Assembly (NCBI GenBank): GCA_019118505.1
Contig: DWYU01000108.1
Coordinates: forward strand, 1 to 47,339
DNA from: Candidatus Oscillibacter excrementavium
Lineage (GTDB): Bacteria > Bacillota > Clostridia > Oscillospirales > Oscillospiraceae
Reading direction: 5' to 3'
Length of the DNA stretch: 47,339 nucleotides
The notes under the pieces are model-generated. The model was given only the letters and a program-made list of their open reading frames with translations. It did no database searches and had not been told where the DNA came from. A program made the position numbers and the translations under genes. Shown piece after piece: positions 9,108 to 47,079 of the stretch. Numbering within the stretch: the first letter of the stretch is position 1; the number at the start of each line of letters is the position of its first letter.

Positions 9108-9136
9108 TTTCCACCTTTGGCAGGATGTGCTATACT
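9108..9136 (+). promoter_or_regulatory. Promoter for ispE-spoIIR
   Basis: TTTCCA (9108-9113), 17-bp spacer, TATACT (9131-9136), 40 bases before the ispE ATG. The -35 is weak. Confidence 0.5.
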
Positions 9137-9176
9137 GGACCCAGACAGCGGGCTGAGACCCGCGGGAGGTGGAAGG

Positions 9177-10055: not shown

Positions 10056-10128
10056 AAATTGAACGTTCCGTCCATACTGCGGGGAAACGGGCCCGAGAGG
10101 GCTACATAGCAAAGGACGGAAAACGAAG

Positions 10129-10764: not shown

Positions 10765-10831
10765 ATCCCAGGTATAATTGCATCCCCAAACCAGCATCCT
10801 AACGGCAGACGGAGGAAGGGGAGGAGATGCC

Positions 10832-11836: not shown

Positions 11837-11868
11837 CCCGGACATAGGTCCGCTCACAGTGCATGAAC

Positions 11869-11909
11869 AGGCCCCGGAGGGGATGGAAGCTCCATCCCCT
11901 CCGGGGCCT
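11869..11909. terminator. Bidirectional terminator (19-bp stem)
   Basis: AGGCCCCGGAGGGGATGGA (11869-11887), loop AGC, exact complement at 11891-11909 followed by TTT. It separates the rightward lipoprotein gene from the leftward YibE/F gene. Confidence 0.85.
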
Positions 11910-11939
11910 TTGCTATGACCGGATCTGCCTGCGGGCGGC

Positions 11940-13115
11940 TCATGCCTGCTCCGGGATTTCCCGCCGGACCCGGGCCGGCAAGGTGTACAGCACCGTGGCG
12001 ATGGCCACTGTGGCCGGCACGCTCAAAATCACGCCGAAGCTGCCGGAGAGGCCCTGCATGACGGATATTGCGATGTTGTTGGAGTTGATGATCTGCAGCC
12101 AGGGCAGGTCGTAGGCGTAGTCCAGCACCAGCATGCTGACGCTGCCGCCGGCGAAGGCCAGGATCAATGTGTTGGAGTCGGTGCCCATCATGTCCCGGCC
12201 CACCCGCATCCCGGCCCGGAACAGCTCTTTCCGGGAGATGCCGGGGGACTGGCCCTGGATCTCCGCCATGGAGCTGGCAATGGACATGCCCACGTCCATC
12301 ATGGCCCCCAGGGCGGAGATCAAAAGGCCGGAGAACAGCAGCCCGCCCACCTGGATGCCGGAGGTGCTCCACAGGCTCATCAGGCTCTCGATGTCGCTGA
12401 TGTTCCAGCCGGTGACGCCGGTGGAGAAGGAGAAGAGGGAGGCGGATACCCCCGCCATCACCACGCCGGCCACGGTCCCGGCAGTGGCGGCCACCGTCTT
12501 GCGGGTGGGACCGCTCAGCAGCCACATGGTCACCACTGTGGTGACGGCACACACCAGCACCGCGCTCCAGAAGGGGGACCAGCCCCGGTACACCATGGGC
12601 AGGTACACCCAGATGATGCAGGCAAAGGTGAACACCAGGCTCAGCGCCCCCTTGGCCCCCTGCCAGCCGCCGATGGCACACAGGGCCAGCAGGTACAGCA
12701 GCACGAAGCAGAGGATCTGGAACTCCCGGTCCTGGGAGTAGACGCTGGACACCACCGTGTCTCCGGCCACGCTCTGCATCACCACCACCCGCATCCCTAC
12801 GGTGCAGGGGGCGCCGAAGAGGAAGCCGGCGCTGGAGGTAGTCTCGATCTCCTGGCCCTTCAGCTCACCGGAGGTCATACGGACCCGGACCACCTGTTCG
12901 CCCACCCGGGTGCCGTTGGGCTGGAGGTTGTCCTGGAGGATCTCCGTCACCACGCCCTTTTCAAAGGTCTGCCCCTCCCGGGAGACCAGCGCCACCTTGT
13001 CCACCTGGTTCAGGCGGACCACCAGCACCAAAAACAGCGCCAGCAGCACCAGGGGCGGCACAAAGCGCTTCCAATCCAATCGTTGTGTCAACAGCTTCAA
13101 GAGAACAGACCTCAT
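11940..13115 (-). CDS. YibE/F family membrane protein
   Basis: 391 residues. After one N-terminal helix (about 17-35) comes an extracytoplasmic domain of about 100 residues (GVVTEILQDNLQPNGTRVGE and so on). About seven membrane segments follow, with the motifs GGWQGAKGALSLVFT, LLISALGAMMDVGMSIASSM and MGTDSNTLILAFAGGS, characteristic of YibE/YibF. The biochemical function of the family is not settled. The ATG at 13115 is preceded only by a moderate ribosome binding site (AGAACAGACC). The gene lies downstream of the SLH metallophosphatase on the same strand, with a good terminator between them. Confidence 0.85.
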   Translation of the reverse strand: MRSVLLKLLTQRLDWKRFVPPLVLLALFLVLVVRLNQVDKVALVSREGQTFEKGVVTEILQDNLQPNGTRVGEQVVRVRMTSGELKGQEIETTSSAGFLFGAPCTVGMRVVVMQSVAGDTVVSSVYSQDREFQILCFVLLYLLALCAIGGWQGAKGALSLVFTFACIIWVYLPMVYRGWSPFWSAVLVCAVTTVVTMWLLSGPTRKTVAATAGTVAGVVMAGVSASLFSFSTGVTGWNISDIESLMSLWSTSGIQVGGLLFSGLLISALGAMMDVGMSIASSMAEIQGQSPGISRKELFRAGMRVGRDMMGTDSNTLILAFAGGSVSMLVLDYAYDLPWLQIINSNNIAISVMQGLSGSFGVILSVPATVAIATVLYTLPARVRREIPEQA

Positions 13116-13157
13116 TTCGTTCAGATATAGACGGCCGGGAGACCGGCGAAAAACAGG

Positions 13158-13190
13158 GTCTCTCCGCAGGCGGACGGCCTGCGGAGAGAC
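13158..13190 (-). terminator. Terminator of the SLH metallophosphatase gene
   Basis: GTCTCTCCGCAGGC (13158-13171) pairs with GCCTGCGGAGAGAC (13177-13190). On the minus strand a CTGTTTTT tract follows. Confidence 0.85.
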
Positions 13191-13213
13191 GGAAGGGGAC
13201 GCGGAACAGGGGG

Positions 13214-15154
13214 TCAGCCCAGCTTGGTCAGGGCGTAGTCCGCGCTGGAGGCGGTGACGGAGCTGCCATCCAGCAGGCCGTTGTTCCGGGCGTAGGCCAT
13301 GCCCTGGGAGAGGGTGGCGTTCCGCACGGCGCCGGCCTTGCCCTGGACCGCGGCGTACCGGGTCAGCATGGCGGCAAACTGGGCCTGGGTGACCAGCTCG
13401 TCCGGCTGGAAGCTGGAGCCGGTGACGCCCTTGACGATGCCCTGGGCCTTGGCCCAGGCCACGGCATTGAGATAGCCGGCATCGGCGCTCACGTCGGAGA
13501 AGCCGGCGGCGGTGGACACGGCGGGACGGCCGGCGTCATCATACAGCCGCTGGACGGCCTGGGCCCGGGTCAGGGGGGCGGTGAGGCTCTCGCCGTCGCC
13601 AGTCTTGCGGATGGTGAAGGTCTGGTCGATCTTCTCCGTCTGGCCGTCAGCGGTCAGCTGATAGGTGTCGATGGAGAAGGCATCCGCGCTGAGGGTGATG
13701 ACGGACCAGCTGGGCAGCCAGTTCTGGCTGCGCTCGGCGATGTAGTCCTGCTGGGCGGAGATCAACTCGTAGTACTTGGAGCCGGAGGCGGAGTTGGCGG
13801 TCATGTACAGGGTGCCGTTGGGATTCACCACGGTGTTGCCCACGGTGGTCTCAATGGTGTAGCAGTGGTTGTCCGCCTGGAAGTCGTCCAGCAGAGCCTG
13901 GCCGGCGGCATCCTCGGGGTACAGGGGGATCTGGGTGCTGGCGTTGATGTCGTAGGCGTGATCCCAGTCGTAGTCGCTGCCGTCATCGTTCAGCTGGAAC
14001 TCATAGGCGCCGTGGGTCTGGCCGTCGCCGTACAGCAGCTTGGAGCGGCTGTAGGTGTGGTCGTGGCCCTGGAGCACCACGTCGATGTCGTACTCGTCGA
14101 AGATGGGGGTCAGCTGGGTCCGGAGGATCATGCCGTCCGTGTCGGAGTGATCCAGGCCGGAGCCGTAGATGTCCTGGTGGATGGTGACGATCCGCCAGGC
14201 GGCGTCGGGATCCGAGGCAATGGCCTCCCGGATGGTCTGCTCATGCTCCGCCACATTGTAGTTGTTGGTGTTCAGCACGATGAACAGGCCGTTGCCGTAG
14301 GAGTAGTAATAGTCGCCGCCGGCCTGGGTGGCGCCGTTCTCCGTGGCGTTGGGGTTGTTGAAGTGGTACATATAGTCGGGGTTCAGGGAGTCGTGGTTGC
14401 CGATGGTGGTGGCAACCGGCAGGGAGGCCAGTACGTCCGGGCTCAGATAGCCGGCATACTCCTCCTCCTTGGCCTGGCCGGTCTTGTTGACCTGGTCGCC
14501 GGCGGAGATGATAAAGCTCACGTCCGGGTCCTGGGCCAGGGCGGCCTCCAGGGTCCGGTTCCAGCCGAAGGCGTCGTTCCGGGCGGCGGTATTGGCCGCG
14601 CCGGACTCGGCGGCCAGGGTCTCGCTGCCCTGGGGCTGGCCCTTGGAGGCACCGATCTGGGGATCGCCCACATACAGCATCTTCACGGTGTCGAAGCTCC
14701 GGGTCTGGTAGGTCTCCACCTCCGTCTGGACGCCGTTCTTCTCCACGGTGTAGTAGTAGGTGGTGTTGGGCGCCAGGCCGGTGACAGTGACGTGGTTGTA
14801 GTGATAGGCCACGCCGCCGGTGAGGCTGGTGTCCACGTCGCCGGCGGTGCCGGTGTAGGCCCGCAGGCTGTTCCGATTGGTGCCGAAGTGCACCACCGGA
14901 GTGGCGGCGGAGCCGTTGTCCTGGCTGTACCAGGCGAAGTTCAGCTCCGTCTCGTCGGCGCCGGGGGTCAGGGACACCTGGGTGTAGTCGGTGGCGACCG
15001 TGTTCCACTCCTGGGTCCAGGCGGTCCACTCGGCGCTGCCGCCCACGGCGGCACCGTCGTTGTAGTGGACGGTGGCGGCCAGGGCGGGGACCATAGTGCC
15101 GATCAGCAGTGCGCCGCACACGCCGCCCACCAGAAGTCTCTTCTTGATGTTCAT
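13214..15154 (-). CDS. Secreted purple-acid-phosphatase-like metallophosphoesterase with SLH anchor
   Basis: 646 residues. A signal peptide (1-27, ending VPALAA) is followed by a fibronectin-III-like domain of the purple acid phosphatase type (about 50-155, with VTGLAPNTTYYYTVEKNG). The calcineurin-like catalytic domain follows, with its five metal motifs: VGDPQIGA, SAGDQVN, TIGNHDS, TIHQDIYG and LQGHDHTYS. The last 100 residues resemble S-layer homology repeats (LTRAQAVQRLYDDAG, FSDVSADAGYLNAVAWAKAQGI, cut here to FSDVSADAGYLNAVAWAKA). Only about two repeats are recognisable and the final one is degenerate. It probably releases phosphate from extracellular esters at the cell surface; the substrate is unknown. 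It has its own promoter and terminator. Confidence 0.88.
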   Translation of the reverse strand: MNIKKRLLVGGVCGALLIGTMVPALAATVHYNDGAAVGGSAEWTAWTQEWNTVATDYTQVSLTPGADETELNFAWYSQDNGSAATPVVHFGTNRNSLRAYTGTAGDVDTSLTGGVAYHYNHVTVTGLAPNTTYYYTVEKNGVQTEVETYQTRSFDTVKMLYVGDPQIGASKGQPQGSETLAAESGAANTAARNDAFGWNRTLEAALAQDPDVSFIISAGDQVNKTGQAKEEEYAGYLSPDVLASLPVATTIGNHDSLNPDYMYHFNNPNATENGATQAGGDYYYSYGNGLFIVLNTNNYNVAEHEQTIREAIASDPDAAWRIVTIHQDIYGSGLDHSDTDGMILRTQLTPIFDEYDIDVVLQGHDHTYSRSKLLYGDGQTHGAYEFQLNDDGSDYDWDHAYDINASTQIPLYPEDAAGQALLDDFQADNHCYTIETTVGNTVVNPNGTLYMTANSASGSKYYELISAQQDYIAERSQNWLPSWSVITLSADAFSIDTYQLTADGQTEKIDQTFTIRKTGDGESLTAPLTRAQAVQRLYDDAGRPAVSTAAGFSDVSADAGYLNAVAWAKAQGIVKGVTGSSFQPDELVTQAQFAAMLTRYAAVQGKAGAVRNATLSQGMAYARNNGLLDGSSVTASSADYALTKLG

Positions 15155-15210
15155 GTCAATCCTTCCTCATTTTCAGTTTTGTTCTGCGCGGGTTTCCCCT
15201 TCGGAACATG

Positions 15211-15239
15211 AGTATAGCGCCCTGATTTTCGTCCCGCAA
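15211..15239 (-). promoter_or_regulatory. Promoter of the SLH metallophosphatase gene
   Basis: Minus strand: TTGCGG (15239-15234), 17-bp spacer, TATACT (15216-15211). A 19-base inverted repeat, AAACTCTT/AAGAGTTT (15250-15268), lies immediately upstream and could be a regulator site. Confidence 0.55.
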
Positions 15240-15341
15240 GGCACCTTGCAAACTCTTGTTAAGAGTTTAACATCCCTTTTACAAAGGGCTCCGCCGCTTT
15301 ACAGAATCGACACATTCCGGCAGCCCGCCGGGGAGAAAAAA

Positions 15342-15368
15342 CGCCCGTGTTCCATCGGAACACGGGCG
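15342..15368 (-). terminator. Terminator of the kinase gene
   Basis: CGCCCGTGTTCC (15342-15353), loop ATC, GGAACACGGGCG (15357-15368). On the minus strand it is followed by GTTTTTTCTC. Confidence 0.88.
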
Positions 15369-15379
15369 GCTGAGCGCGG

Positions 15380-17314
15380 TCAGGTAATATTGACATTGGG
15401 CACGTGGTCCAGGGGGGACATGTCCGCGATGCGGTTCTCCTGGCCGTCAAACTGAAGGGTCACGTTGGTCAGATTCTCCAGATCCCGGAGGGCGGAGATG
15501 TCTGTCAGCTGGTCCTGGGTCTGAATATAGAGGTTTTCCAGGGCGTGCAGATTTTCCAGCCCGGACAGGTCCCGGATCTTGTAGTTCCGCAGAGACAGTG
15601 ATTTGAGGTTCGTGAGATCTTTCAGCGGCTCCAGGGTCTGATATCCGCTTAGCCCCATATATCCGTCAGAGAGGTTCAGCGAGACCAGCTGCGTCAGGCC
15701 GGAGAGGGGAGACAGATCCGCTACCTTGTGGTCAATGGACAGGAAGGCCAGATGGGTACAGTTCGCCAGGGGCGTCAGGTCCGCGTAGATCTCCAGGGAC
15801 GAGTCGTAAATGGGCAGCTCCAGTTCCTTCAGCTCCGTCAGGTGCCCCAGAGGCTCCAGGGAGGTGAAGGTGGCGCCCTGGCCGCCGATGCGCAGAGTCT
15901 CCAGACGGGTCAGCGTCTCGATGCCGTCCAGGCTGGCCAGGCCCTGCGTCCGGACACGCAGGTATGTCAGGTTGGTCAGCCCTGAGAGGGGCGTCAGATC
16001 GCTCATGCCCAGCCCCTCCGGGTATGTGATCTCCAGCTTCGTCAGCGAGGGGAACTCCCGCAACGTTTGAAAGTCTGCATCCGTCAGATTCGAGCCATCC
16101 AGCTCCAGCTCCGTCAGCGCCGTGCTGTAGGACTCCCCACCGATGGTGACCTTGGGGGCCAGGGCCTCCGAGACGGGGTTCCCGCCTCCGCCGCTGCCGG
16201 AGCCGCCGCCCCCGCCCAGCGCCATGCCGACGCCCACGGCCACCACCACGACCGCGGCAAGGCCCGCGATCAGGGCGGGCTTGATCTTTTTCTTCTCCGG
16301 GGCAGGGGCGGCCGCCGCGCCGCCGGAGACAGGCACCTCCACCACCCGCTGGGACTCGATGGCGTCCAGAAATTCGGCGGCAGATTGGAACCGGTCCTCC
16401 GGCTGGACGGCAAGGCCCTTGAGAATCGCCTTGTCCAGGTACTCCGGGATGCCGATGCCGCACTGGGAGATGGGCACCAGGGTGTCCTCATCCAGACGCT
16501 CCAGGGATTCCGGCGGCAGGAATCCCGTGATGGCCGCGTAGAGGCAGGCGGCACAGGAGTAGACGTCGGTGTAGGGGCCCTGGCGGCTCCGGCGGATGTA
16601 CTGCTCCTTCGGGGCGTAGCCCACCTTCAGCACGACGTCCAGGCTCTTGGACTTGTCGCCGATGGAGTACCGGGCGGAGCCGAAGTCCAGCAGCTTCACC
16701 TGCCCGTCCTTGGTGATGTAGATGTTGTCCGGGGTCACGTCCCGGTGGATGAAGCCCTCGGCGTGGACGGCGGTCAACGCCCGCAGCACCGGGATCATCA
16801 CGTTCAGGGCCTCCTCCACGCTGACCTTCCCGCCGTGGTTGGCGATGTAGGTTTTGAAGGAGATGCCCTCGATGTAGTCCATGACGAAGTAGGACGTGTC
16901 GTTCTCGTCGAAGTAGTCCGTCACGCCGGCGATGTTGGGCTGGCCCATGAACTTGGCCAGGGTCCGGGCCTCCTCCTGGAACCGCTCCGCGCCGTAGGTA
17001 AAGTCCTGGGTGCGGCTCTCCACTGCCACGGACACGGTGGTGCCCACCCGGGTGGCGATCTCGTTGGGCATGAACTCCTTCACGGCCACCCGGGCCTCCA
17101 GTTTGGTGTCCCAGGCCAGATAGGTGATGCCGAAGCCGCCCTGTCCCAGCACCCGGCCCACGATGTAGCGGCCGTTCAGCGCGGTCCCGGCCCGCAGGGC
17201 CACGGGGAATTTCTTCTCGTTCTCCGCCAGATCGAACCCGCAGTACGGGCAGGGGCCCTCCTGGGTCTCCTTTTCCTGGAAGCAGTTGTAACACAGAACT
17301 GTCTTTTCCGCCAC
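15380..17314 (-). CDS. Zinc-ribbon, Ser/Thr kinase, membrane, leucine-rich-repeat receptor
   Basis: 644 residues. A zinc ribbon comes first (Cys8, Cys11, Cys22, Cys25). A Hanks-type kinase domain spans about 48-320: glycine loop GRVLGQGGFG (53-62), Lys79 in VAVKE, catalytic HRDVTPDN (190-197) and DFG (210-212). A proline-rich linker leads to one membrane helix at about 345-366 and a Gly/Ser spacer. About 250 extracytoplasmic residues of short leucine-rich repeats (SDLTPLSGLTNLTYLRV and the like) follow. So the kinase lies inside and the LRR sensor outside; PASTA domains are absent. All catalytic residues are present. The start is GTG at 17314 after AAGGAGGG. It lies between two SLH-anchored surface protein genes. 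Its ligand and targets are unknown. Confidence 0.88.
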   Translation of the reverse strand: MAEKTVLCYNCFQEKETQEGPCPYCGFDLAENEKKFPVALRAGTALNGRYIVGRVLGQGGFGITYLAWDTKLEARVAVKEFMPNEIATRVGTTVSVAVESRTQDFTYGAERFQEEARTLAKFMGQPNIAGVTDYFDENDTSYFVMDYIEGISFKTYIANHGGKVSVEEALNVMIPVLRALTAVHAEGFIHRDVTPDNIYITKDGQVKLLDFGSARYSIGDKSKSLDVVLKVGYAPKEQYIRRSRQGPYTDVYSCAACLYAAITGFLPPESLERLDEDTLVPISQCGIGIPEYLDKAILKGLAVQPEDRFQSAAEFLDAIESQRVVEVPVSGGAAAAPAPEKKKIKPALIAGLAAVVVVAVGVGMALGGGGGSGSGGGGNPVSEALAPKVTIGGESYSTALTELELDGSNLTDADFQTLREFPSLTKLEITYPEGLGMSDLTPLSGLTNLTYLRVRTQGLASLDGIETLTRLETLRIGGQGATFTSLEPLGHLTELKELELPIYDSSLEIYADLTPLANCTHLAFLSIDHKVADLSPLSGLTQLVSLNLSDGYMGLSGYQTLEPLKDLTNLKSLSLRNYKIRDLSGLENLHALENLYIQTQDQLTDISALRDLENLTNVTLQFDGQENRIADMSPLDHVPNVNIT

Positions 17315-17352
17315 GTCGAGCCCTCCTTGAAATCAGATGGTAAGGTGGTTCC

Positions 17353-17381
17353 ATCATATCCTTTTTTTGGATGCTCCACAA
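17353..17381 (-). promoter_or_regulatory. Promoter of the kinase gene
   Basis: Minus strand: TTGTGG (17381-17376), 17-bp spacer, TATGAT (17358-17353), giving a leader of about 30 nt before the GTG start. Confidence 0.6.
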
Positions 17382-17512
17382 TATGCTGGCTGCATAGGGT
17401 CGGGCAAAAATTCCGGCCAGAGCCCGCAGTCTCGCCGGGAATGTCTGGAGCGGCGGCCGGATGCTTCCAGGATGCCTTTCCGGAATGCGCTGCGGCACAA
17501 GGGAAACCGGCC

Positions 17513-17553
17513 GCTTTCCGGGATTTTCCGGCCAGCTGGAAAATCCGGAAAGC
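17513..17553. repeat. Imperfect 16-bp palindrome in a 437-bp gene-free stretch
   Basis: The arm at 17513-17529 pairs with 17538-17553 (GGAAAATCCGGAAAGC) with a single bulged G and an 8-base loop. TTTTCCGG-type words recur nearby (about 17610-17618). The gap 17315-17751 otherwise holds the kinase promoter and the leader of the SLH gene, and no gene or known riboswitch was recognised. It may be an operator or RNA hairpin. Confidence 0.45.
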
Positions 17554-17751
17554 CCTTGCGCGGGGACGCGGAGCTGTGCTAGGATCAGGACCGTGCTTTT
17601 GAGGCCGGATTTTCCGGGCATGATACGGATTTTGGTTAAAAATTGAAATATTTTCAGGATTTACATTTGGAGACGACCTCCCTGTCCGAAAACGGAAAGC
17701 CCCCTGCTTCAAACGCCATCACCACAAACCACTCAGGAGGAATCAACACAC

Positions 17752-19767
17752 ATGAAAAAAGAACTTGTCACAGGACTGCTGACCCTGAGCCTGCTGGCCT
17801 CCATGCTGCCGGCCAACGCGGCTGCGGCCCAGAGAACGGCCGCGCCGGAGGCGGGGCTGGTCCAGACGGTGACCGGCGGTGAGACGGAGCAGGACGGCCC
17901 CCAGGCCGACAGCGGGGAGGAGTCCGGCGGGGCGGAGCAGACCGGCTCCGCCGCGGAGATCGGCGGGACCCCCTATGACACCCTGGAGGCGGCCATTGCC
18001 GCGGCGAAGGAGAACGATGTCATCCAGCTGCGGCGGGATGTGGAGCTGGATGCCTCCGGCCTGGCCAACGGCCAGGGCGCCCTGACCATTTCCAAGAACC
18101 TGACTCTGGACGGCGGCGGTCACCGGCTCTTTGCCAAGGAGGGCACCTTCACCGTCACCGGCGATAACGGCGGCGGTCCCAGCCTGGTGAACGTTCAGGA
18201 CGGCGCCGCAGTGACTTTGCGGAACATCACCCTGGACGGCGGCGGTGCCGCCAAGCACGGCCTGAATGTCTACCACGCCGGCGTACTGTCCCTGGAGAAC
18301 GTGGAGATCTCCAACTGCCGCTGGTATGCCATGGTGGTCAACAACACGGAGCTGTCCGTGGACGGTCTGACCACCTCCGGGAACCAGTGGGGCGTCAACA
18401 TCGACCAGGGCAGCCGCGTCACCCTGGCCAACGCGGAGATCGCCGAGGGGGACTCCGTGGTATTTGAGGGCCAGGATGACTCCGGCAGCCTGACGGTGGA
18501 GAGCGGCAGCCTCCAGAACATCAAGACCCAGGGGGCTTCCACCGGCGGCACCATCACCATTGCCGGCGGCACCATTGCCAGCGTGTCCAACGAGGCGGGG
18601 GCGGAGGTCACCATCTCCGGCGGCACGGTGACGGGCCAGGTGGCCAACAGCGGCTCCGGCAGCATCTCCGTCACCGGCGGCAGCTTCACCACTGCGGATG
18701 TGGAGGACTTTGTGGACCCGGGCCAGACGGTGATCCTGACCCTGGACCCTGCCGGCGGCTCCTGCCAGGTCAAGACCCTGGCCGTGGCCAACGGCGCCGC
18801 TGTGGGGGATCTGCCCGCGCCGGTGCGGGAGGGATACCGCTTTACCGGTTGGTTCACCGCCGCCGACGGCGGCTCCATGGTCACGGCGGACACCACCTTT
18901 GACGCCGCCGCCACCCTCTATGCCCGGTGGGAGCAGGAGAGCAGCTCCGGCGGCAGCGGCGGTTCCGGCGGCAGCGACACGGACGGGGACTACCTCATCA
19001 CCGTGGACCGGGTCACCGGCGGCACCCTGCGGGTGAACCCCGGCCGCGCCGACAAGGGCGACACGGTGACCATCACCGTGACTCCCAAGACGGGCTATGT
19101 GCTGAAGGAGCTGGTTGTCACCGACAGCCGGGGCGAAGAGATCGAGACCCGCGGCGCCGGCGAGGGGCGCTACACCTTCGTCATGCCGGGCAGCCGGGTC
19201 AATGTGTCCGCCTCCTTTGCCCGGGCGGAGGAGCAGGAGAAGCTGCCCTTCAGCGATGTGAGCAGCAGCGCCTACTACTACGACGCGGTCCGCTGGGCCG
19301 CGGAGGAGGGCATCACCGCCGGCGTCACCGGCAGCACCTTCGCGCCGGACCGGGGCTGCACCCGGGCCCAGATCGTCACCTTCCTGTGGCGGGCCAACGG
19401 CTCCCCCAAGCCCTCCTCTCAGGAGAATCCCTTCACCGACGTGAGCGCCGGCAGTTATTACTACCAGGCTGTACTGTGGGCGGTGGAGAAGGGCATCACC
19501 ACCGGTGTCACCAGCACCACCTTTGCCCCTGATGCCCTCTGCACCCGGGGCCAGGCCACCATGCTCCTGTGGCGGGCCAGCGGCTCTCCCCAGGTTTCCA
19601 AGGCCCACCCCTTCCGGGACGTGGCGGAGGACGCCTACTATGAGGACGCGGTGAACTGGGCGGTCCACAGCGGCGTGACCCAGGGCACCACCGGCAGCAC
19701 CTTCGCGCCCCAGGACGTGTGCACCCGGGCCCAGATCGTGACCTTCCTCTATCGGGCACAGGCCTGA
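17752..19767 (+). CDS. S-layer-anchored beta-helix surface protein
   Basis: 671 residues. The signal peptide is about 1-26 (LLASMLPANAAAA). After an acidic linker, residues 70-315 form repetitive beta-strand units of the pectin-lyase/right-handed helix type (TLEAAIAAAKENDVIQL, LTLDGGGHRLFA, VTLRNITLDGGG). Next is an InlB B-repeat/Flg_new module (about 327-385: VREGYRFTGWFTAADGG, then TLYARWE), a Gly/Ser linker, a second beta domain (about 403-480) and three SLH repeats (from about 487, 550 and 612; for example FAPDRGCTRAQIVTFLWRA). The SLH repeats should bind secondary cell-wall polymer. No catalytic residues were identified, so adhesion or a structural role is a guess. The ATG follows CAGGAGGAAT. 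Confidence 0.88.
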   Translation: MKKELVTGLLTLSLLASMLPANAAAAQRTAAPEAGLVQTVTGGETEQDGPQADSGEESGGAEQTGSAAEIGGTPYDTLEAAIAAAKENDVIQLRRDVELDASGLANGQGALTISKNLTLDGGGHRLFAKEGTFTVTGDNGGGPSLVNVQDGAAVTLRNITLDGGGAAKHGLNVYHAGVLSLENVEISNCRWYAMVVNNTELSVDGLTTSGNQWGVNIDQGSRVTLANAEIAEGDSVVFEGQDDSGSLTVESGSLQNIKTQGASTGGTITIAGGTIASVSNEAGAEVTISGGTVTGQVANSGSGSISVTGGSFTTADVEDFVDPGQTVILTLDPAGGSCQVKTLAVANGAAVGDLPAPVREGYRFTGWFTAADGGSMVTADTTFDAAATLYARWEQESSSGGSGGSGGSDTDGDYLITVDRVTGGTLRVNPGRADKGDTVTITVTPKTGYVLKELVVTDSRGEEIETRGAGEGRYTFVMPGSRVNVSASFARAEEQEKLPFSDVSSSAYYYDAVRWAAEEGITAGVTGSTFAPDRGCTRAQIVTFLWRANGSPKPSSQENPFTDVSAGSYYYQAVLWAVEKGITTGVTSTTFAPDALCTRGQATMLLWRASGSPQVSKAHPFRDVAEDAYYEDAVNWAVHSGVTQGTTGSTFAPQDVCTRAQIVTFLYRAQA

Positions 19768-19801
19768 TCGAGCGCCCCGCCGCTGTGAAGCGGCACCTCT
19801 C

Positions 19802-19833
19802 CCGGCCAGGCGGACACGCCTGGCCGGTTTTTT
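19802..19833 (+). terminator. Terminator of the SLH beta-helix gene
   Basis: CCGGCCAGGCG (19802-19812), loop GACA, CGCCTGGCCGG (19817-19827), then TTTTTT. Confidence 0.9.
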
Positions 19834-19986
19834 GGCCGGACAGCGAAAAGGCACTGGAAAAATTCTCCCTGCGGGGATAGAATGGAAGCACAGCCTCTTG
19901 GCGCCGCCGGGCGGCGGAGACTGGACACGGGAGGCCGGGATGGGGCATCCGCCGGCCTGACCAGCATACAGGGAGGTTCTGCACAC

Positions 19987-20775
19987 ATGACGAAAAAAGT
20001 ATTTGGCTACCCGGAGTTTGACCAGGAGGGAGAGGAGATCCTCTGCACCTATGACAACGCGTACAGCGATATGCTGATGGACATTCGGGTCTACCGGATG
20101 CGGCCGGGCCAGAAGCGGTCCTTCTGCCGCCAGGGAGAGGAGATCGCGGTGCTGCTGCTGTCCGGGACCGTGGCCTTCGGCTGGGAGGGCCGGACGGAGA
20201 CGGTCAGCCGGAAGGACGTGTTCACCGAGGGACCCTATGCGGTCCACGTCTGCACCGGGAAGGAGATCACCGTGGAGGCCGGGACAGACGCGGAGATCCT
20301 GGTCCAGTGCACGAAAAACGACACGGCCTTTGCCGGCAAGCTGTACCGGCCGGAGGATGCCCCCTGGGTCTACTCCTCCGTGGGCAAGTTCGGCAATGTG
20401 GCCAAGCGCCGGGTGAACACCATCTTTGACAAGGACATCGCCCCCTGGTCCAACATGGTGCTGGGCGAGGTGCTGAACGACCGGGGCAACTGGTCCGGGT
20501 ACCTGCCCCACCGGCATCCCCAGCCGGAGTGCTATTACTTCAAATTCGACCGGCCCGAGGGCTTCGGTGCCAGCTTTGTGGGGGACGACGTCTTCAAGAG
20601 CGTGGACAACAGCTTCTCCGCCATCCCCGGCGGCTGCCTGCACCCCCAGGCGGTGGCACCCGGCTTCCAGATGTACACCTGCTGGATGATCCGCCACCTG
20701 GACGGCGATCCCTGGCTCCAGACCACCCGCAACGAGGATGAGCGGTACCTCTGGCTCCACGACGCCCAGTTTTGA
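19987..20775 (+). CDS. iolB: 5-deoxy-glucuronate isomerase
   Basis: 262 residues, a bicupin of the IolB family that converts 5-deoxy-glucuronate to 2-deoxy-5-keto-gluconate in myo-inositol catabolism. The C-terminal cupin shows GNWSGYLPHRHPQPECYYFK, where the His pair and Glu are the metal ligands, and GGCLHPQAVAPGFQMYTCWM. The N-terminal cupin has VLLLSGTVAFGWEG. The ATG at 19987 is chosen over an upstream in-frame ATG because AGGGAGGTT precedes it. No other iol gene is in the window and strong terminators lie on both sides, so it stands alone. A related sugar-acid isomerase role is possible. Confidence 0.88.
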   Translation: MTKKVFGYPEFDQEGEEILCTYDNAYSDMLMDIRVYRMRPGQKRSFCRQGEEIAVLLLSGTVAFGWEGRTETVSRKDVFTEGPYAVHVCTGKEITVEAGTDAEILVQCTKNDTAFAGKLYRPEDAPWVYSSVGKFGNVAKRRVNTIFDKDIAPWSNMVLGEVLNDRGNWSGYLPHRHPQPECYYFKFDRPEGFGASFVGDDVFKSVDNSFSAIPGGCLHPQAVAPGFQMYTCWMIRHLDGDPWLQTTRNEDERYLWLHDAQF

Positions 20776-40701: not shown

Positions 40702-41961
40702 TCAGGCGGTCTCCTTCTTGGCGGCCATGGCCTTCACCAGCCAGTCCTTGCCCTCCACGATCCGGGTGACCAGCATGGAGGCGATGGTGTCGCCGGAGGA
40801 GTTCAGGCAGGTGGCGGCAGGGTCGAAGATGAAGCCCAGGGTGGCGATGATGGGGAAGGCCTCGGCGGGGAAGTTGAACATGGAGACGATCAGCATCTCG
40901 CCCACCAGACCGCCGCCGGGGGCGCCGGAGAGGACGAAGGCGGACAGGATGGCCACCACGATGGCCATGGCGTAGGTGTCCGCGCCGGTAAATTCCATGT
41001 TGAAGATGCCGTACAGGAAGGCGATCTTCACGATGGAGCTCAGAACGGAGCCGTCCATGTGCATGGTGCAGCCCATGGGCAGCACCAGATCGCTGACGTC
41101 CTTGGGCACGCCGATGTTGTCACAGGCTTCCTTGTTCACGGGGATGGTGGCGGCGGAGGACTGGGTGGCGAAGGCGGTGATGGCAGGCGGGAAGATGTTC
41201 TTGATCATTCTCTTCACGCCCAGCTTGCCGCCGGCCAGGAAGGCGTACAGGGGGAAGAAAATAACGCCGTACAGCAGGCACAGGGGGTAGTAGACCAGCA
41301 TGGAGCGGCCGTAGTCGCCCACGATCTCCGGGCCGTAGGTGGCCACCAGATTGGCGAAGTAGGCGCCCAGGCCGATGGGGGCGATGAACATGATGACGCC
41401 CACGAACTTCATGATGATGTCGTTCAGGTTCATGAGCAGCTTGCCCATGGGGCTCTCGTCGCCGCCGCAGGCGGACACACAGAAGCCGAAGATGATGGCA
41501 AAGATGATCAGGGGCAGCATGTTGGACTTATCCCACAGATCGGAGAAGTCGGACACGGTCAGAGTGCTGACCAGCAGCTCGCCGGCGCTCTGGGCCTCGC
41601 CGGCCTCGCCGGCCGTCAGCTGGATGGAGGTGCCGGCGGAAGGGCTGAACAGGTTCACCCACAGCAGCACACAGGCCGCGGCGATCAGGCCGGTGAAGAT
41701 GAAAGTGCCGATGGTGGAGCCCAGGATCTTGCCCAGCCGCTTCATGTTGGCCATGCTGCCAACCGCGGAGGCGATGGACACGAACACCAGGGGAACCACG
41801 ATGGTGAACAGCAGGTTCAGGAAGATGTCGCCGATGGGCTTGATGGTGGTGCCCACGGCAGGGGCAAAGGCCCCGATGAGGGCGCCGATGATGATGCCGC
41901 CCAGGATCAGGATCAGGCTTCCGTACTGCTGCCAGAAGCTCTTCTTTTGAATGGTTGCCAT
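40702..41961 (-). CDS. Dicarboxylate/amino acid:cation symporter (DAACS), likely cystine or cysteine-type substrate
   Basis: 419 residues with about eight transmembrane helices and two re-entrant loops. ITAFATQSSAATIPVNKEAC is the serine-rich loop (HP1), LPMGCTMHMDGS is the TM7 motif, and VLSGAPGGGLVGEMLI is the HP2 region. The family moves glutamate, aspartate, C4-dicarboxylates, or cystine (TcyP of Bacillus) with Na+ or H+. The neighbouring C-S lyase, RidA and CyuA suggest a sulfur amino acid as substrate; this is inference. The ATG at 41961 has AGGAGGAGCC upstream. It lies 40 bases after patB/malY with no terminator between, so they are co-transcribed. Confidence 0.88.
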   Translation of the reverse strand: MATIQKKSFWQQYGSLILILGGIIIGALIGAFAPAVGTTIKPIGDIFLNLLFTIVVPLVFVSIASAVGSMANMKRLGKILGSTIGTFIFTGLIAAACVLLWVNLFSPSAGTSIQLTAGEAGEAQSAGELLVSTLTVSDFSDLWDKSNMLPLIIFAIIFGFCVSACGGDESPMGKLLMNLNDIIMKFVGVIMFIAPIGLGAYFANLVATYGPEIVGDYGRSMLVYYPLCLLYGVIFFPLYAFLAGGKLGVKRMIKNIFPPAITAFATQSSAATIPVNKEACDNIGVPKDVSDLVLPMGCTMHMDGSVLSSIVKIAFLYGIFNMEFTGADTYAMAIVVAILSAFVLSGAPGGGLVGEMLIVSMFNFPAEAFPIIATLGFIFDPAATCLNSSGDTIASMLVTRIVEGKDWLVKAMAAKKETA

Positions 41962-42001
41962 AAAAGGCTCCTCCTCACTTTACCAATCTCTTTTCAAATG
42001 G

Positions 42002-43171
42002 TCACAGGGACTTGACCGCCGCCTCCAGCTGCTTCATGGCCTGCTCCAGCACGCTGCGGGGGCAGGCGGCGTTGAGCCGCATGTAGCCGCTCAGGCTGCG
42101 GCCGAAGGTGTAGCCCTCGTTGAGGCCCAGCTTGGCCTTCTCGATCATGAAGCGGCGCAGCGCCTCGTTGTCCAGGCCCAGCTCCCGGCAGTCCAGCCAC
42201 ATCAGGTAGGTGGCGTCGGGGGCGTAGGTCTTGATCTGGGGAATGTGCTCCCTGCAGTAGTTGACCACGAAGTCGAAGTTGTCGGACAGATAGGCCAGCA
42301 GCTGCTCCAGCCACTCCTCGCCCTCGTTGAAGGCGGCCTGCATGGCGGTGAGGGAGAAGGCGTTGTTGCGGTGGATGTCCATGCACTGCCAGTAGTGGTC
42401 AAAGACCTGCTTCATGTGGGCGTTGGGGAACACCGCGGTGGAGGCCTGCAGGCCCGCCAGGTTGAAGGTCTTGGTGCCGGAGATGCCGGTGACCACATAC
42501 TGGGCGGCCTCGGGGGACACGGTGGCGGTGGGGGTGTGCTTCTTGCCGTGGAAGATCAGGTCGGAGTGGATCTCGTCGGAGAACAGAACCACATGGTGCT
42601 TCATGCACAGCTCCACCATGCGGCGCAGCTCCTCAGGGGTCCACACGATGCCCAGGGGGTTGTGGGGGTTGCACAGCAGGAACAGGTCGGCCTCCTCCAG
42701 CTTGGCCTCAAAGTCGGCCCAGTTCATCTCCCACTTGCCGTCCTTCTCAATAAACTGGTTCTCCAGCACCCTGCGGTTCCACGCCTCGGTCATGTCGTAG
42801 AACTCGGAGTACACCGGGGTCTGGATGAGGACGCTGCCCCCCTCGGGGGTGAACAGCTTCACCATGGCGCTGATGGTCTGCACCACGCCCAGGCTGAAGC
42901 TCATCAGGCTCTGGTCGATGTCCCAGCCGTTGCGGCGCTTCTGCCAGCCCCGGATGGCCTCAAAATAGGAGTCCGGGCGGCTGGTGTAGCCCCAGATGCC
43001 CTCCTGGGCCCGCTTGCCCAGGGCGTCAATGATGGGCTGGGCGGTCTTGAAGTCCATGTCGGCGATCCACAGAGGGATGACATCGTCGGTGCCGAATTTC
43101 TTCTTCCGCTCATCGTACTTGGCCGCGCAGTTTTTGCTGCGGTCAACCACCACATCAAAATCATACTTCAT
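42002..43171 (-). CDS. MalY/PatB-type PLP-dependent C-S beta-lyase
   Basis: 389 residues, a fold-type I aminotransferase-like enzyme. MalY/PatB members cleave cystathionine, cysteine or cystine to thiol, pyruvate and ammonia by way of 2-aminoacrylate. IPLWIADMDFKTAQPIIDAL is the diagnostic N-terminal motif. GYTSRPDSYFEAI, LLCNPHNPLGIVW and FSDEIHSDLI line the cofactor site. The PLP lysine lies in SGTKTFNLAG, near residue 235. Length and motifs are complete. The gene starts at ATG 43171 after AGGAAAGGCAGG, about 60 nt downstream of a sigma-54 promoter. It is first in the unit with symporter, ridA and glutaredoxin-like gene. Aminotransferase activity on related compounds cannot be excluded. Confidence 0.9.
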   Translation of the reverse strand: MKYDFDVVVDRSKNCAAKYDERKKKFGTDDVIPLWIADMDFKTAQPIIDALGKRAQEGIWGYTSRPDSYFEAIRGWQKRRNGWDIDQSLMSFSLGVVQTISAMVKLFTPEGGSVLIQTPVYSEFYDMTEAWNRRVLENQFIEKDGKWEMNWADFEAKLEEADLFLLCNPHNPLGIVWTPEELRRMVELCMKHHVVLFSDEIHSDLIFHGKKHTPTATVSPEAAQYVVTGISGTKTFNLAGLQASTAVFPNAHMKQVFDHYWQCMDIHRNNAFSLTAMQAAFNEGEEWLEQLLAYLSDNFDFVVNYCREHIPQIKTYAPDATYLMWLDCRELGLDNEALRRFMIEKAKLGLNEGYTFGRSLSGYMRLNAACPRSVLEQAMKQLEAAVKSL

Positions 43172-43240
43172 CGCTGCTTACCTGCCTTTCCTTCTCTGGA
43201 TTGGGTTTTTATTTCAGGCTGTACGCTTGCCCCTGTTTTA

Positions 43241-43257
43241 AGCAATCGGCGTGCCGA
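43241..43257 (-). promoter_or_regulatory. Sigma-54 promoter of the patB/malY operon
   Basis: Minus strand TCGGCACGCCGATTGCT: GG (43255-43254) and GC (43243-43242) are separated by exactly 10 bp. It matches TTGGCAC-N5-TTGCW at all but one position. The start site should fall near 43230. Confidence 0.85.
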
Positions 43258-43333
43258 ACTATGCCAGCTTCCGCAATATTATCCGATCTACACAATTTCT
43301 ATTCTCTTCCTTTGTATAAAACAGATAAAAGCA

Positions 43334-43363
43334 CCGCCGGACACTCTTACCAGTGTCCGGCGG
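43334..43363 (-). terminator. Terminator of the sigma-54 activator gene
   Basis: CCGCCGGACACT (43334-43345) pairs with AGTGTCCGGCGG (43352-43363). On the minus strand TGCTTTTATCTGTTTT follows. It lies between the enhancer array and the patB/malY promoter. Confidence 0.85.
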
Positions 43364-43389
43364 CGCCCCCGACGCAAGCCGGGGAAACA

Positions 43390-43425
43390 GGTTAAATCGG
43401 TTAAAAAGGTTAAATCGGTCAAACC
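43390..43425 (-). promoter_or_regulatory. Four-unit 9-bp direct-repeat array, candidate enhancer for patB/malY
   Basis: The plus strand reads GGTTAAATC, GGTTAAAAA, GGTTAAATC, GGTCAAACC without gaps. In the direction of the patB/malY promoter this is GGTTTGACC GATTTAACC TTTTTAACC GATTTAACC, consensus NNTTTRACC. It begins four bases from the activator stop codon, and its centre lies about 150 bp upstream of the -24 element. A three-unit version lies before cyuA. Confidence 0.75.
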
Positions 43426-43428
43426 AAT

Positions 43429-45504
43429 TCAGGGCTTCTCCTCCGTTACCAGTCGGCGGCACAGGGCCCGGCCGGCTGGGGTGAGCCGTGTGCCCCCTCT
43501 CCCCCGGCTCACCCGGGCCAGGCCCGCCTGATCCAGGGCGGAGAGGATGCGCCGCACCTCCTGCTGGGAGCAGGGCAGCCCCGCCGCCTTGGCGGCGGCC
43601 AGGATGGCATCCCGGCCCAGGCTGCGCCCCTCCCGGTCGGCCTGGTAGAGCCGGGAGAGCACAAACCGCTCGTCCTCCTGGGGGCAGTCCGCCAGCCGCG
43701 GGGGCTGCGCCCCGGCCCCGCCGGCCTCCGGCAGGCCGGCGGGCAGATAGTGAAAGGTGGGCGGCAGCTCCTCCGGCCCCACCACCGGGCTGCCGGTATA
43801 GCTGAAATACTCCACCACGTTGCGCAGCTCCCGGATATTCCCCCGCCACTGGTGGGTGAGCAGCAGCCGCTCCAGCTCGGGCGACAGGGTGAAGGAGGCG
43901 CCGATGCCCTTCCGGAAGTGGTCGATGAGCAGCAGCAGATCCCCCTCCCGCTCCCGCAGGGGCGGGATCAGCACGGGCAGGGTGTTGAGGCGGTAGTAGA
44001 GATCCCGCCGGAAGGTGCCCTCCTCCACCATCTTGTCCAGGTTTTCGTTGGTGGCTGCCACGATGCGCACGTCCACCGAGACGATGCGGTTGCCCCCCAC
44101 CCGCATGATCTCCCGCTCCTGGAGCACCCGCAGCAGCTTGCACTGGAGGGCGGTGCTCATGCCCTCCACCTCGTCCAGAAACAGGGTGCCCTTGTGGGCG
44201 AACTCGAACAGGCCGGGCTTGCCCCCCTTCCGGGCGCCGGTGAAGGCCCCCTCCTCGTAGCCGAACAGCTCGCTCTCCAGCAGGTTTTCCGGCATGGCGG
44301 CGCAGTTGATGGCTACAAAGGGCCCGTTTGCCCGGGGAGAGGCGTTGTGAACCGCGTGGGCAAAGAGCTCCTTGCCGGTGCCCGTCTCCCCGATGAGGAG
44401 GACGGGGAGCTGGGTGAGGGACATCTTCTTTAATATGGTGATGCACCGCCGGATGGCCGGTGACTGGCCCACCACGTCGTCAAAGGTGTACTTGGCCCGG
44501 TAGCCCTTGTGGAGCAGCTGGCTGCGCAGCTCGTTCTGCCGGTTCTCCGCGTCGCTGAACCGCTGCACCGTGGCGAAGGCGCCGATGCAGGCGCCCCCCC
44601 GGAGCACCGGCGCCACCGCCACGTTCATGTTGACGCCGTTGGCGCTCACCACCTGGGCGGGCTGGGGGGCCCGCTCGGCCAGGCATCTGGCAAAGGGGAC
44701 GAAGGGGTACACCTCCGCCGCCGGGCGCTGGAGGGCCCGGGCACCGGGGATGCCGGTGATCTCCTCCAGCTTGTGGTTGCTGGCAAACACCTCTCCCCGC
44801 TCGTTGACCCCCACGATGCCCTCGTCCAGGATCTCCATGAGGATCTCAAACTGGCTCTCCAGCCGCAGGCCCCGGGCAAACACCCGGTCGAAGCTGTAGG
44901 TATTGGCGGCCACATCCCGCTGGTACTGCTCAAACTCCGGGGTCTCCAGCAGCTCCTCGAAGCCCAGGCGGAGGGCCGCCTCGATCATGGTGGAGCTGTC
45001 GCACACCCGCTGGCCGATGTCGATGATCTCCCTGGCTCCGGCGGGGACATAGCGGGTCTCCTGGGGGGTGATCACAAAGTCATACTGGCTCATATCCGGC
45101 TCCGGCGCGCCGGGATGGTAGAGATCGAAGTCCAGCTGGTTCACCCCCAGCTGGTTGAGGCGGGTCACCGCCTCCCGGCACATCTTGTCGCTCAGGTTGA
45201 CGAACAGAACCTTTTTGCCGGCGGGCAGGGCCTGGAGCCTGTGCACCACGTCCCAGCGGAGGGTGACGTGGATCTCCATCATCTCCCCGTCGATGGGCAC
45301 ATAGCGGTGCATATCTCCCAGGGAGTCGAAGGCGTCGGTGGTGACCATATAGAGGTCGTACTTGCGGGGCATGTGCTCCACCGAGCCGTCCCGCACACTG
45401 TAGGAGCACACGGCAATCCGGTCGCTGAAGAGTTTCTGTACCTGCTGGGCATAGAACTGCCCGGCATAGGCGTCCAGGGAGATGACCGCCACATTCTTTT
45501 TCAA
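43429..45504 (-). CDS. Sigma-54-dependent transcriptional activator of the sulfur amino acid locus
   Basis: 691 residues. The N-terminal region of about 200 residues looks alpha/beta (YDLYMVTTDAFD, YDFVITPQETRYVPAGAREI) and could be a PrpR_N-like signal domain. A PAS-like domain follows (about 215-325: LMEILDEGIVGVNERGEVFA). The AAA+ domain (about 340-575) has Walker A GETGTGKE (372-379), the sigma-54 contact loop GAFTGA (419-424), Walker B GTLFLDEVE (439-447) and the arginine finger region FRRDLYYRL. The C-terminus (about 610-690) reads like a winged helix (VRRILSALDQAGLARVSRGR, then GGTRLTPAGRALCRRL) instead of the usual Fis-type helix-turn-helix. The start is TTG at 45504, after AGGAGGG. 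Its own upstream DNA holds the cyuA repeat array, so autoregulation is likely. Confidence 0.9.
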   Translation of the reverse strand: MKKNVAVISLDAYAGQFYAQQVQKLFSDRIAVCSYSVRDGSVEHMPRKYDLYMVTTDAFDSLGDMHRYVPIDGEMMEIHVTLRWDVVHRLQALPAGKKVLFVNLSDKMCREAVTRLNQLGVNQLDFDLYHPGAPEPDMSQYDFVITPQETRYVPAGAREIIDIGQRVCDSSTMIEAALRLGFEELLETPEFEQYQRDVAANTYSFDRVFARGLRLESQFEILMEILDEGIVGVNERGEVFASNHKLEEITGIPGARALQRPAAEVYPFVPFARCLAERAPQPAQVVSANGVNMNVAVAPVLRGGACIGAFATVQRFSDAENRQNELRSQLLHKGYRAKYTFDDVVGQSPAIRRCITILKKMSLTQLPVLLIGETGTGKELFAHAVHNASPRANGPFVAINCAAMPENLLESELFGYEEGAFTGARKGGKPGLFEFAHKGTLFLDEVEGMSTALQCKLLRVLQEREIMRVGGNRIVSVDVRIVAATNENLDKMVEEGTFRRDLYYRLNTLPVLIPPLREREGDLLLLIDHFRKGIGASFTLSPELERLLLTHQWRGNIRELRNVVEYFSYTGSPVVGPEELPPTFHYLPAGLPEAGGAGAQPPRLADCPQEDERFVLSRLYQADREGRSLGRDAILAAAKAAGLPCSQQEVRRILSALDQAGLARVSRGRGGTRLTPAGRALCRRLVTEEKP

Positions 45505-45531
45505 GGGAAGGCCCTCCTTTTCTGGCCAATT

Positions 45532-45558
45532 TCTTTGACCAGTTTAACCGATTTAACA
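45532..45558 (+). promoter_or_regulatory. Three-unit 9-bp direct-repeat array, candidate enhancer for cyuA
   Basis: The plus strand reads TCTTTGACC AGTTTAACC GATTTAACA, the same NNTTTRACC consensus and orientation relative to the promoter as at 43390-43425. The two sites share the 15-mer TTTAACCGATTTAAC. The centre is about 100 bp upstream of the -24 element and 40 bp upstream of the divergent activator start codon. Confidence 0.75.
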
Positions 45559-45643
45559 CCTATTTTGGCCGCTGCCCGCCCCTTTGTCAAGTCCCAGAGG
45601 CCGATTTTCCCCGTTTTTCCACTCTTTTTCCCGCCGAAATGAG

Positions 45644-45660
45644 TTGGCACGCCGGTTGCA
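45644..45660 (+). promoter_or_regulatory. Sigma-54 promoter of cyuA
   Basis: TTGGCACGCCGGTTGCA: GG at 45646-45647 and GC at 45658-45659 with 10 bp between, a full match to the -24/-12 consensus. The predicted leader to the ATG at 45722 is about 50 nt and ends AAAAGGAGAGAATCGCA. Confidence 0.9.
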
Positions 45661-45721
45661 TATCTGTCAGTGCAGAAAACAAAGCCGCCCGGCCGGGGCG
45701 ACTGAAAAGGAGAGAATCGCA

Positions 45722-47017
45722 ATGAATCAACTGACCAAGGAAGAAATGCTCACCCTGCTGCGCCAGGAGGTTGTCCCCGCCCTGGGCTGCACCGAGCCCG
45801 TGTGCGTGGCCCTGTGCGCCGCCGACGCCTACCACGCCATCGGCGGCCAGGTGGTATCCATCAAGATGGAAGTCAACCCCGGCATCTATAAGAACGGCAT
45901 GAGCGTGGGCATCCCCGGCTTCAACCGGGTGGGCCTGAAGTACGCCGCCGCCCTGGGCGCCTGCCTGGGCAACCCGGAGAAGGGCCTGCAGCTGCTGGAG
46001 GAGATCAACAGCATCGTCAGCAAGGAGGCCACCCGCCTGGTGGAGGAGAAGCAGGTCAGCGTCACCATCGCCGAGGAGGAGACTCAGCTCTACGCCCACG
46101 CCGAGATCATCACCACCCGGGGCATCGGCATCAGCACCATCCGCAACACCCACGCCAACATCGTCTACACCAGCGCCAATAACCAGGTGCTCTTTGAGAA
46201 GGAGTACACCGTGGACGGCGAGGACGCCCTCCATGAGAAGCTCAAGGACATGACCATCTCCCAGATCCGGGAGCTGGTGGACTCCGCCACCGAGGAGGAG
46301 CTCTCCTTCATGATGGACGGCGCCGAGATGAACGAGAACCTCTCCGACTACGGCCTGGAGAACCGCCTGGGCATCGGCATCGCCGACACCCTCAAGAACC
46401 AGCTGACCACCGACGTGATGGGCTCCAGCCTGATGAGCAACATCATGGTTCGGGTGGCCTCCAGCGCCGAGGGCCGTATGTCCGGCTGTCCCTACGCGGT
46501 CATGAGCAGCGCCGGCAGCGGCAACCACGGCATCACCGCCATCATCCCCGTGGTGGAGATGGCCAAGCACGTGGGGGCCAGCAAGGAGGCCACCGAGAAG
46601 GCCCTGGCGTTCTCCCACCTGCTCAACGTGTACATCAAGATCTTCACTGGCAAGCTCAGCGCCACCTGCGGCTGCGGCGTGTCCGCGGCGGCCGCCGCCT
46701 CCGCCGCCATGGTGTGGCTGCTGGGGGGCGACGACGCCCAGATGGGGGCCGCCATTATCAACATGAGCGGCAATCTGACCGGCATGATCTGCGACGGCGG
46801 CAAGATCGGCTGCGCCCTCAAGCTGGCCACCGCCTCCTCCGCCGCGGTGATGAGCGCCTACCTGGCCATGGGCGGCGTGGTGGTCAGCGCCAGCGACGGC
46901 ATCTGCGCCTCCACCCCCGAGCAGGCCATCCGCAATATGGGCCGGGTGAGCAACCCCGGCATGGTTGCCACCGACCGTACCATCCTGGACATCATGATGG
47001 AGAAGGACGAGGGCTGA
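45722..47017 (+). CDS. cyuA: L-cysteine desulfidase family protein (CyuA/YhaM, UPF0597)
   Basis: 431 residues, full length. The family resembles the fused L-serine dehydratase fold and carries an oxygen-sensitive Fe-S cluster. CyuA converts L-cysteine to sulfide, ammonia and pyruvate. Likely cluster cysteines lie in [15 protein letters not shown] (Cys23), [15 protein letters not shown] and [34 protein letters not shown] (here [16 protein letters not shown]) is another hallmark. The gene is controlled by the sigma-54 promoter at 45644 and the adjacent repeat array, linking it to the divergent activator and the patB/malY operon. Action on serine or other 3-thiolated amino acids cannot be excluded. 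Confidence 0.9.
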
Positions 47018-47079
47018 GCTGGTTCCCATGCCCGCCTGAGTCAAGATCTCCGGCTAAGCCGCAATCTCATTAAGATAAG

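Follow-up and report, generated by a model that had tools for sequence, protein, structure and literature searches.

The window analysed here, a stretch of 47,339 nucleotides from Candidatus Oscillibacter excrementavium, contains the gene for a sigma54 activator (bEBP) of 691 amino acids (43429–45504, minus strand) between two sets of candidate target genes. On its downstream side, on the same strand, lie the gene for a patB-type C–S lyase (42002–43171; TIGR04350, above its cut-off), the first of the downstream target operon, and that for a sodium:dicarboxylate symporter (SDF) family transporter (40702–41961; PF00375), the second gene of the operon. On the other side, the plus strand encodes an SDH_alpha protein (45722–47017; PF03313), which has no NCBIfam match and which we infer from its family and neighbourhood to be cysteine-desulfidase-like. 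Each flank carries a sigma54 −24/−12 element, CGGCACGCCGATTGCT ahead of patB (43241–43256, minus strand) and TGGCACGCCGGTTGCA ahead of the desulfidase-like gene (45645–45660, plus strand), and both elements face outward, away from the activator gene. The activator gene has a predicted sigma70 promoter of its own (TTGACA-17-CAAAAT; 45562–45590, minus strand), and a predicted intrinsic terminator (43327–43370, minus strand) separates the patB sigma54 promoter from the downstream of two repeat arrays that flank the gene, each upstream of a −24/−12 element. The sigma54 gene is present in the assembly (PF04552, E 2.2e-53).

The downstream array (43390–43425) reads TTTGACC-N2-TTTAACC-N2-TTTAACC-N2-TTTAACC on the minus strand, toward the patB sigma54 promoter, its first exact TTTGACC beginning 5 bases beyond the activator stop codon; on the plus strand it is GGTTAAATC GGTTAAAAA GGTTAAATC GGTCAAACC, that is, four exact GGTYAAANN units with a 9-bp period. 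The upstream array (45532–45558), which ends 27 bases ahead of the activator start codon, reads TTTGACC-N2-TTTAACC-N2-TTTAACA on the plus strand, toward the sigma54 promoter of the desulfidase-like gene; on the minus strand it consists of the exact units GGTTAAACT and GGTCAAAGA and a third, TGTTAAATC, with one mismatch. An earlier, sequence-only reading had counted four and three units at an exact 9-bp period: the four stand, and the three are properly two exact units and one imperfect one. What it said of the arrangement holds as the sequence has it, in that both arrays have the same orientation toward their promoters, carry the TTTGACC variant at the distal end and have the 15-mer TTTAACCGATTTAAC in common, and the exact half-sites lie 95–104 bp and 133–160 bp from the −24 elements, about the 100–150 bp it had given. 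A three-unit pattern allowing up to three mismatches has four overlapping matches in the window and none in 100 shuffles; with up to two mismatches it occurs nowhere besides these arrays in the 2.53-Mb assembly, and all four occurrences of the exact two-unit form TTTRACCNNTTTRACC in the whole assembly fall at these arrays.

The protein encoded between the arrays comprises an N-terminal alpha/beta region, a PAS domain, a central AAA+ domain, a lid, a linker and a C-terminal winged helix, the last by prediction. The AAA+ domain (PF00158, E 1.9e-70, residues 345–511), with GAFTGA in the translation, marks it as a bEBP of the NtrC family, as do the sigma54 gene in the genome and the −24/−12 promoters at its targets. 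Matches to the Sigma54_activat and lid domains are clear and that to PAS is weak (E 0.002); a fold search with a model of residues 1–330 returned mostly PAS-domain structures and, as a search that gives no aligned ranges, no named fold for residues 1–200. The last 122 residues, modelled from an alignment of 32 relatives, form an H-H-H-E-E-H fold with pLDDT blocks of 78–89 in the domain, preceded by a low-confidence linker (residues 584–598). HTH_12, a winged-helix family, weakly matches 26 of the 32 relatives (best E 5.8e-6), and the best Foldseek matches of the C-terminal domain are the winged helices of DtxR, AF1382, MntR and CggR (E 1e-3 to 2e-2), again weak, the best at 1.4e-3 and none below 1e-3. 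We therefore take the C-terminus to be a winged helix without a family assignment and place the predicted DNA-binding domain at residues ~607–689 (43438–43686, minus strand), which agrees with the earlier choice of residues 600–691 as the DNA-binding end. A Fis-type domain was rejected, given the winged-helix prediction and the lack of any match of the window activator to the Fis helix-turn-helix (PF02954, HTH_8) up to E = 1; among the 32 relatives, PF02954 is absent from the 25 families shown at E ≤ 0.1, with 15 more families beyond those shown. Because the domain is a predicted winged helix, the contrast that had been drawn with the palindromes of Fis-type activators belongs to a different domain.

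Scanning one genome per species yielded 23 orthologue loci with 56–99% identity in Flavonifractor, Enterenecus, Intestinimonas, Gemmiger, Fournierella, Lacrimispora and other genera. PatB adjoins the activator in all 23, the desulfidase-like gene lies on the activator's other side in 21 (the exceptions being L094 and L095), and 45 of the 48 flanking regions of the 24 loci, window included, contain a −24/−12 element. Half-sites were counted in 44 activator-to-promoter regions from 23 species, again including the window; L074 was omitted as near-identical to the window, the upstream regions of L094 and L095, which have no promoter, were left out, and for L077 and L085 the downstream limit was placed by hand at a weaker promoter. 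Of the 44 regions, 38 contain two or more [TA][TC]RACC half-sites and the other 6 fewer than two, with none downstream by this pattern in the Gemmiger-type loci L092 and L093. Across the 44 regions, 66 TTYRACC half-sites point toward the sigma54 promoter and 2 away from it, so that like-oriented half-sites upstream of a sigma54 promoter, the hallmark of a direct-repeat UAS, are the rule. The sequence-only reading had itself offered conservation beside orthologues as the test that could overturn it, and on this test the half-site and its orientation came through, the counts being taken over related, non-independent species. Blind counting of 6-mers gave TTAACC at least twice in 12 of the 44 regions, against a mean of 12.6 for the commonest 6-mer of shuffled sets, and at least once in 26 regions, against a shuffled mean of 19.9 and maximum of 30. 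As such counting did not single out the motif, what carries the case is the orientation of the half-sites, their spacing and the motif as a whole, criteria that were fixed after the data were seen.

Pairs of RACC on the same strand of the 44 regions are most often 9 bp apart (23 pairs), followed by 22 bp (13), 13 bp (10) and 18 bp (9), and then by 11 and 20 bp (8 each), 27 and 30 bp (6 each) and 8 and 10 bp (5 each). Random stretches of the same loci give on average 0.75 pairs at 9 bp, with a maximum of 4 in 300 draws; for the steps of 9, 13, 18, 22 and 27 bp they give 0.3–0.8 pairs and the opposite orientation gives 0–1. The steps of 8, 10, 11, 20 and 30 bp are likewise in excess (5 to 8 pairs each), so the set of steps is not tight, and at least one 9-bp step is found by the [TA][TC]RACC pattern in 9 of the 23 species, which makes 9 bp the favourite and not the rule. 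The exact 9-bp period proposed earlier thus survives as the commonest step and fails as an invariant one, since 13, 18, 22 bp and others occur. Half-sites of the orthologues that have no other at +9 carry T at +6 in 87% and at +7 in 82% of cases (57 cases, L074 excluded). The unit is therefore probably TTTRACCNNTT(T), with a T-tract that neighbours at 9 bp have in common, and because half-sites with no follower at +9 keep these T residues, the imperfect third unit of the upstream array (45550–45558) may be no unit in its own right but the 3′-terminal part of the second.

A search of 19 orthologue genomes found the exact two-unit pattern at 20 places and the reversed one at 2. Sixteen of the 20 sites are at one end or the other of the activator gene, in 7 genomes, two of these sites starting within the last codons; one lies about 2.2 kb from the activator and 3 are elsewhere. 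The exact site is absent from 9 of the 19 genomes. Among the 86 congeners of the window's assembly, 34 have a match to the activator at E ≤ 1e-120, and the exact pattern has 11 matches in the 85 congeners outside the assembly itself, against 26 for the reversed control in 86. With no excess over the control in congeners and nine orthologue genomes devoid of it, the exact 9-bp array was rejected as a family-wide signature. The one outlying site at 2.2 kb (L087:2763–2778, TTTGACCCATTTGACC) precedes the activator gene, beyond the desulfidase-like gene, and is possibly a further target or a chance occurrence.

The activator transcript, as predicted, has roughly its first 25 bases within the upstream array. 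An activator promoter is predicted in 21 of 22 upstream regions (L074 included here; none in L090), and of these 21 regions 20 have a half-site core at +13 to +17, and 16 have one at +5 to +7, with +1 taken from the best-scoring promoter prediction and the positions counted without a control. Given these cores near the predicted +1, the upstream array seems to overlap the activator's transcript start, and binding on the first bases of the predicted sigma70 transcript should repress the activator gene. We consider it probable that the upstream array mediates autorepression of the activator.

Related activators extend the pattern. Sister activators with 55% identity, one of them (L035) in the window's own assembly, have the same gene order and the same half-site on both sides, with steps, in 24 regions from 12 genomes, of 13 bp (13 pairs), 18 bp (8), 8 bp (6) and 9 bp (4). 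These statistics cover 12 of the 26 activators with 55–58% identity; of 20 stretches considered, L048 was omitted, as only one of its promoters passed, and L036–L042 were omitted as other relatives. In 16 relatives at 30–35% identity, two kinds of pair occur just past the stop codon, TAGG at 12 bp (9 pairs; 0.05 expected) and ACC/TCC at 9 bp (6 pairs; 0.25 expected), in a 110-bp stretch picked after inspection and with six patterns tried; one such relative, L102, shows no step pairs of this kind by eye. Winged-helix-type bEBPs of this distant group (L099–L112, L118 and L124, at 30–35%) often have AATAGGT/ACCTATT half-sites directly behind the stop codon, with 9- and 12-bp steps and partly as inverted arms. 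The remaining hits of the orthologue scan, mostly AAA+-only relatives, were not used (L113–L116, L119–L123, L125–L152). The sister L035 belongs to a further copy of the entire cluster, on a separate contig of the assembly, where identity to the window is 55% for the activator, 83% for PatB, 93% for SDF, 76% for RidA and 73% for the desulfidase-like protein; the further copy may reflect either two copies in one genome or a mixed MAG (contamination 3.71%).

The feature is thus real and conserved, and the adjacent sigma54 activator is very probably the protein that binds the arrays. Our preferred reading, to which we assign a probability of roughly 0.77, is that both arrays are upstream activating sequences, or enhancers, for two outward operons, served by the bEBP encoded between them, and that the upstream array additionally represses the activator gene. 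The role of the arrays as the activator's enhancers is thereby retained from the sequence-only reading, on the grounds of their conservation beside the activator and their orientation to the promoter, while its contrast with Fis-type sites, its invariant period and its claim of a new type of enhancer need changing, and the side-by-side loading of subunits that it took the spacing to imply stands as conjecture. Mechanistically, the C-terminal winged helix would read one short asymmetric site, about TTTRACCNNTTT, repeated head to tail mostly every 9 bp, where neighbours would share the T-tract, and at 13 bp and more in other species. Several sites in this arrangement would allow several subunits of one activator oligomer to bind one array, and the flexible linker would tolerate varied steps. 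The N-terminal and PAS region would sense a signal, probably cysteine or a product of cysteine, and the AAA+ ring would reach from the arrays, by looping, to sigma54-RNA polymerase poised at both outward −24/−12 promoters, and would thereby activate patB with the transporter gene at one and the cysteine-desulfidase-like gene at the other. Activator bound at the upstream array should also repress its own gene, read from the predicted sigma70 promoter.

The most serious competitor of this reading assigns the enhancer role to the downstream array only and treats the upstream one as mainly an operator for autorepression of the activator. It draws on the nearly constant positions of half-sites in most orthologues (about +6, +15 and +28 from the predicted activator +1), and on a distance to the −24 element that varies more than that to the activator +1. 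We nevertheless regard it as unlikely, because half-sites of the same kind and orientation lie downstream of the activator gene, where no activator promoter is expected, beside a conserved sigma54 promoter, and because operator and enhancer roles of the upstream array are compatible. That a different regulator sharing the locus occupies the sites is less likely still. Winged-helix repressors of many families bind short AT-rich sites, which counts in its favour; yet the sites accompany the activator gene from genus to genus, its flanks have nearly all the exact two-unit sites (16 of the 20 in the 19 genomes), and the sister activator also has half-sites on both sides.

It is also conceivable, if improbable, that inverted pairs, with GGTYAAA facing TTTRACC, are what the activator binds, as with other bEBPs, and that the direct repeats are by-products. 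The sister group has GGTCAAA around the activator stop in 9 of 13 patB-side regions, 8 of these with TTTRACC further on, and many of the relatives with 30–35% identity have inverted AATAGGT/ACCTATT arms past the stop. Against this stand the 44 orthologue regions, where 66 half-sites share one direction and 2 have the opposite one, and the inverted arms of distant relatives may partly double as terminators. As for a functionless short tandem repeat produced by replication slippage, two arrays at an exact 9-bp period do resemble a microsatellite, but between species the units are kept while the spacing varies, and the orientation to the sigma54 promoter is kept on both sides, which makes this origin exceedingly improbable.

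The combination of features can be set against described systems, in each case as far as the consulted portions of the published accounts extend. Nla28, a bEBP of Myxococcus xanthus, has clusters of 8-bp half-sites upstream of sigma54 promoters, proposed to be tandem direct repeats, and half-site mutations lowered binding and promoter activity (PMC9765219). It resembles the window activator in its clusters of short, directly repeated half-sites at sigma54 promoters; it differs in being encoded with a histidine kinase and in its spacers of 3 to 54 bases (PMC9765219), and its consensus CT[C/G]CG[C/G]AG is not that of the window, where the half-site is TTYRACC. DVU0151 of Desulfovibrio vulgaris is described as a one-component bEBP without a Fis helix-turn-helix; the C-termini of its orthologues match a winged-helix model, and its gene is divergent from a sigma54 promoter (PMC4641369); judged by this description, the window activator resembles it in having a winged helix, by prediction, in place of Fis. 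Direct-repeat half-sites and a winged-helix bEBP are therefore each on record in the portions of these accounts consulted, the earlier claim of a new type of enhancer was too strong, and what would be new here is their combination: the literature searched, by titles and the starts of abstracts and with most subscription papers outside it, yielded no description of direct-repeat sites of a winged-helix bEBP.

Other comparisons are more distant. CdsR of C. difficile, according to the portions consulted, is a sigma54 activator that adjoins a cysteine desulfidase gene and is needed for its expression with cysteine (PMC5767170), and it is like the window activator in its position beside a desulfidase(-like) gene. 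Orthology was rejected, as CdsR has 591 amino acids, a Fis domain and a proposed inverted-repeat UAS (PMC5767170) and the window activator has 691 amino acids and no Fis domain; the C. difficile relative of the window activator, L100 (669 amino acids, 33% identity), is another protein than CdsR. GamR of Clostridioides/Clostridium is encoded beside puuDT and regulates it (PMC6615313). L100 adjoins glutamine-amidotransferase-type and amino-acid-permease-type genes, which, read by eye, fit puuDT, and is thus perhaps GamR; among the relatives grouped with it, AATAGGT/ACCTATT half-sites with steps of 9 and 12 bp follow the stop codon. The window activator itself is not GamR, since its flanks hold patB with the transporter gene and the desulfidase-like gene and not puuDT, and its C. 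difficile relative is only 33% identical. At rpoS of Borrelia, direct repeats near a sigma54 promoter are bound by the winged-helix protein BosR, which differs in belonging to the Fur family and not to the bEBPs and in its pentamer repeat TAAAT (PMC3037356). AnfA sites are dyads (PMC7294313). In the portion of the bEBP survey consulted, TGT-N10-12-ACA inverted-repeat motifs occur in 15 of 39 groups, and Fis domains in 335 of 490 bEBPs (PMC6615313).

As far as the regulon surveys considered go, inverted repeats make up many of the bEBP enhancers, and Fis-type domains are present in most bEBPs. A directional array next to a winged-helix bEBP is a simple system in which to ask how an AAA+ hexamer loads on DNA, what number of sites this takes and whether sister activators owe their specificity to spacing. 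It also supplies a testable rule by which to look for regulons of winged-helix bEBPs, and it puts forward a candidate regulator of cysteine breakdown, probably with sulfide release, in gut Flavonifractor-like bacteria. A broader proposal, which we advance tentatively and at slightly less than even odds, is that a Bacillota family of winged-helix bEBPs reads head-to-tail arrays of one asymmetric site, with steps of 9 and 12–13 bp above all, their sums and some looser ones; that the one array which enhances the divergent operon is at once the operator of the activator gene; and that activator, arrays and both operons move between species as a plug-in regulon.

Comparison with the genome of Flavonifractor sp. 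An10 touches on such movement. Positions 40713–47039 of the window, which span the transporter, patB, both arrays, the activator and the desulfidase-like gene, are 97.7% identical to it over 6336 bp; positions 1–20000 have only scattered matches of 67–87%, and the sigma54 region of the assembly reaches ~65% at best length. With identity elsewhere so far below that of the block, the segment from the transporter to the desulfidase-like gene looks, by sequence comparison, as if it had been passed between species as one self-contained regulon.
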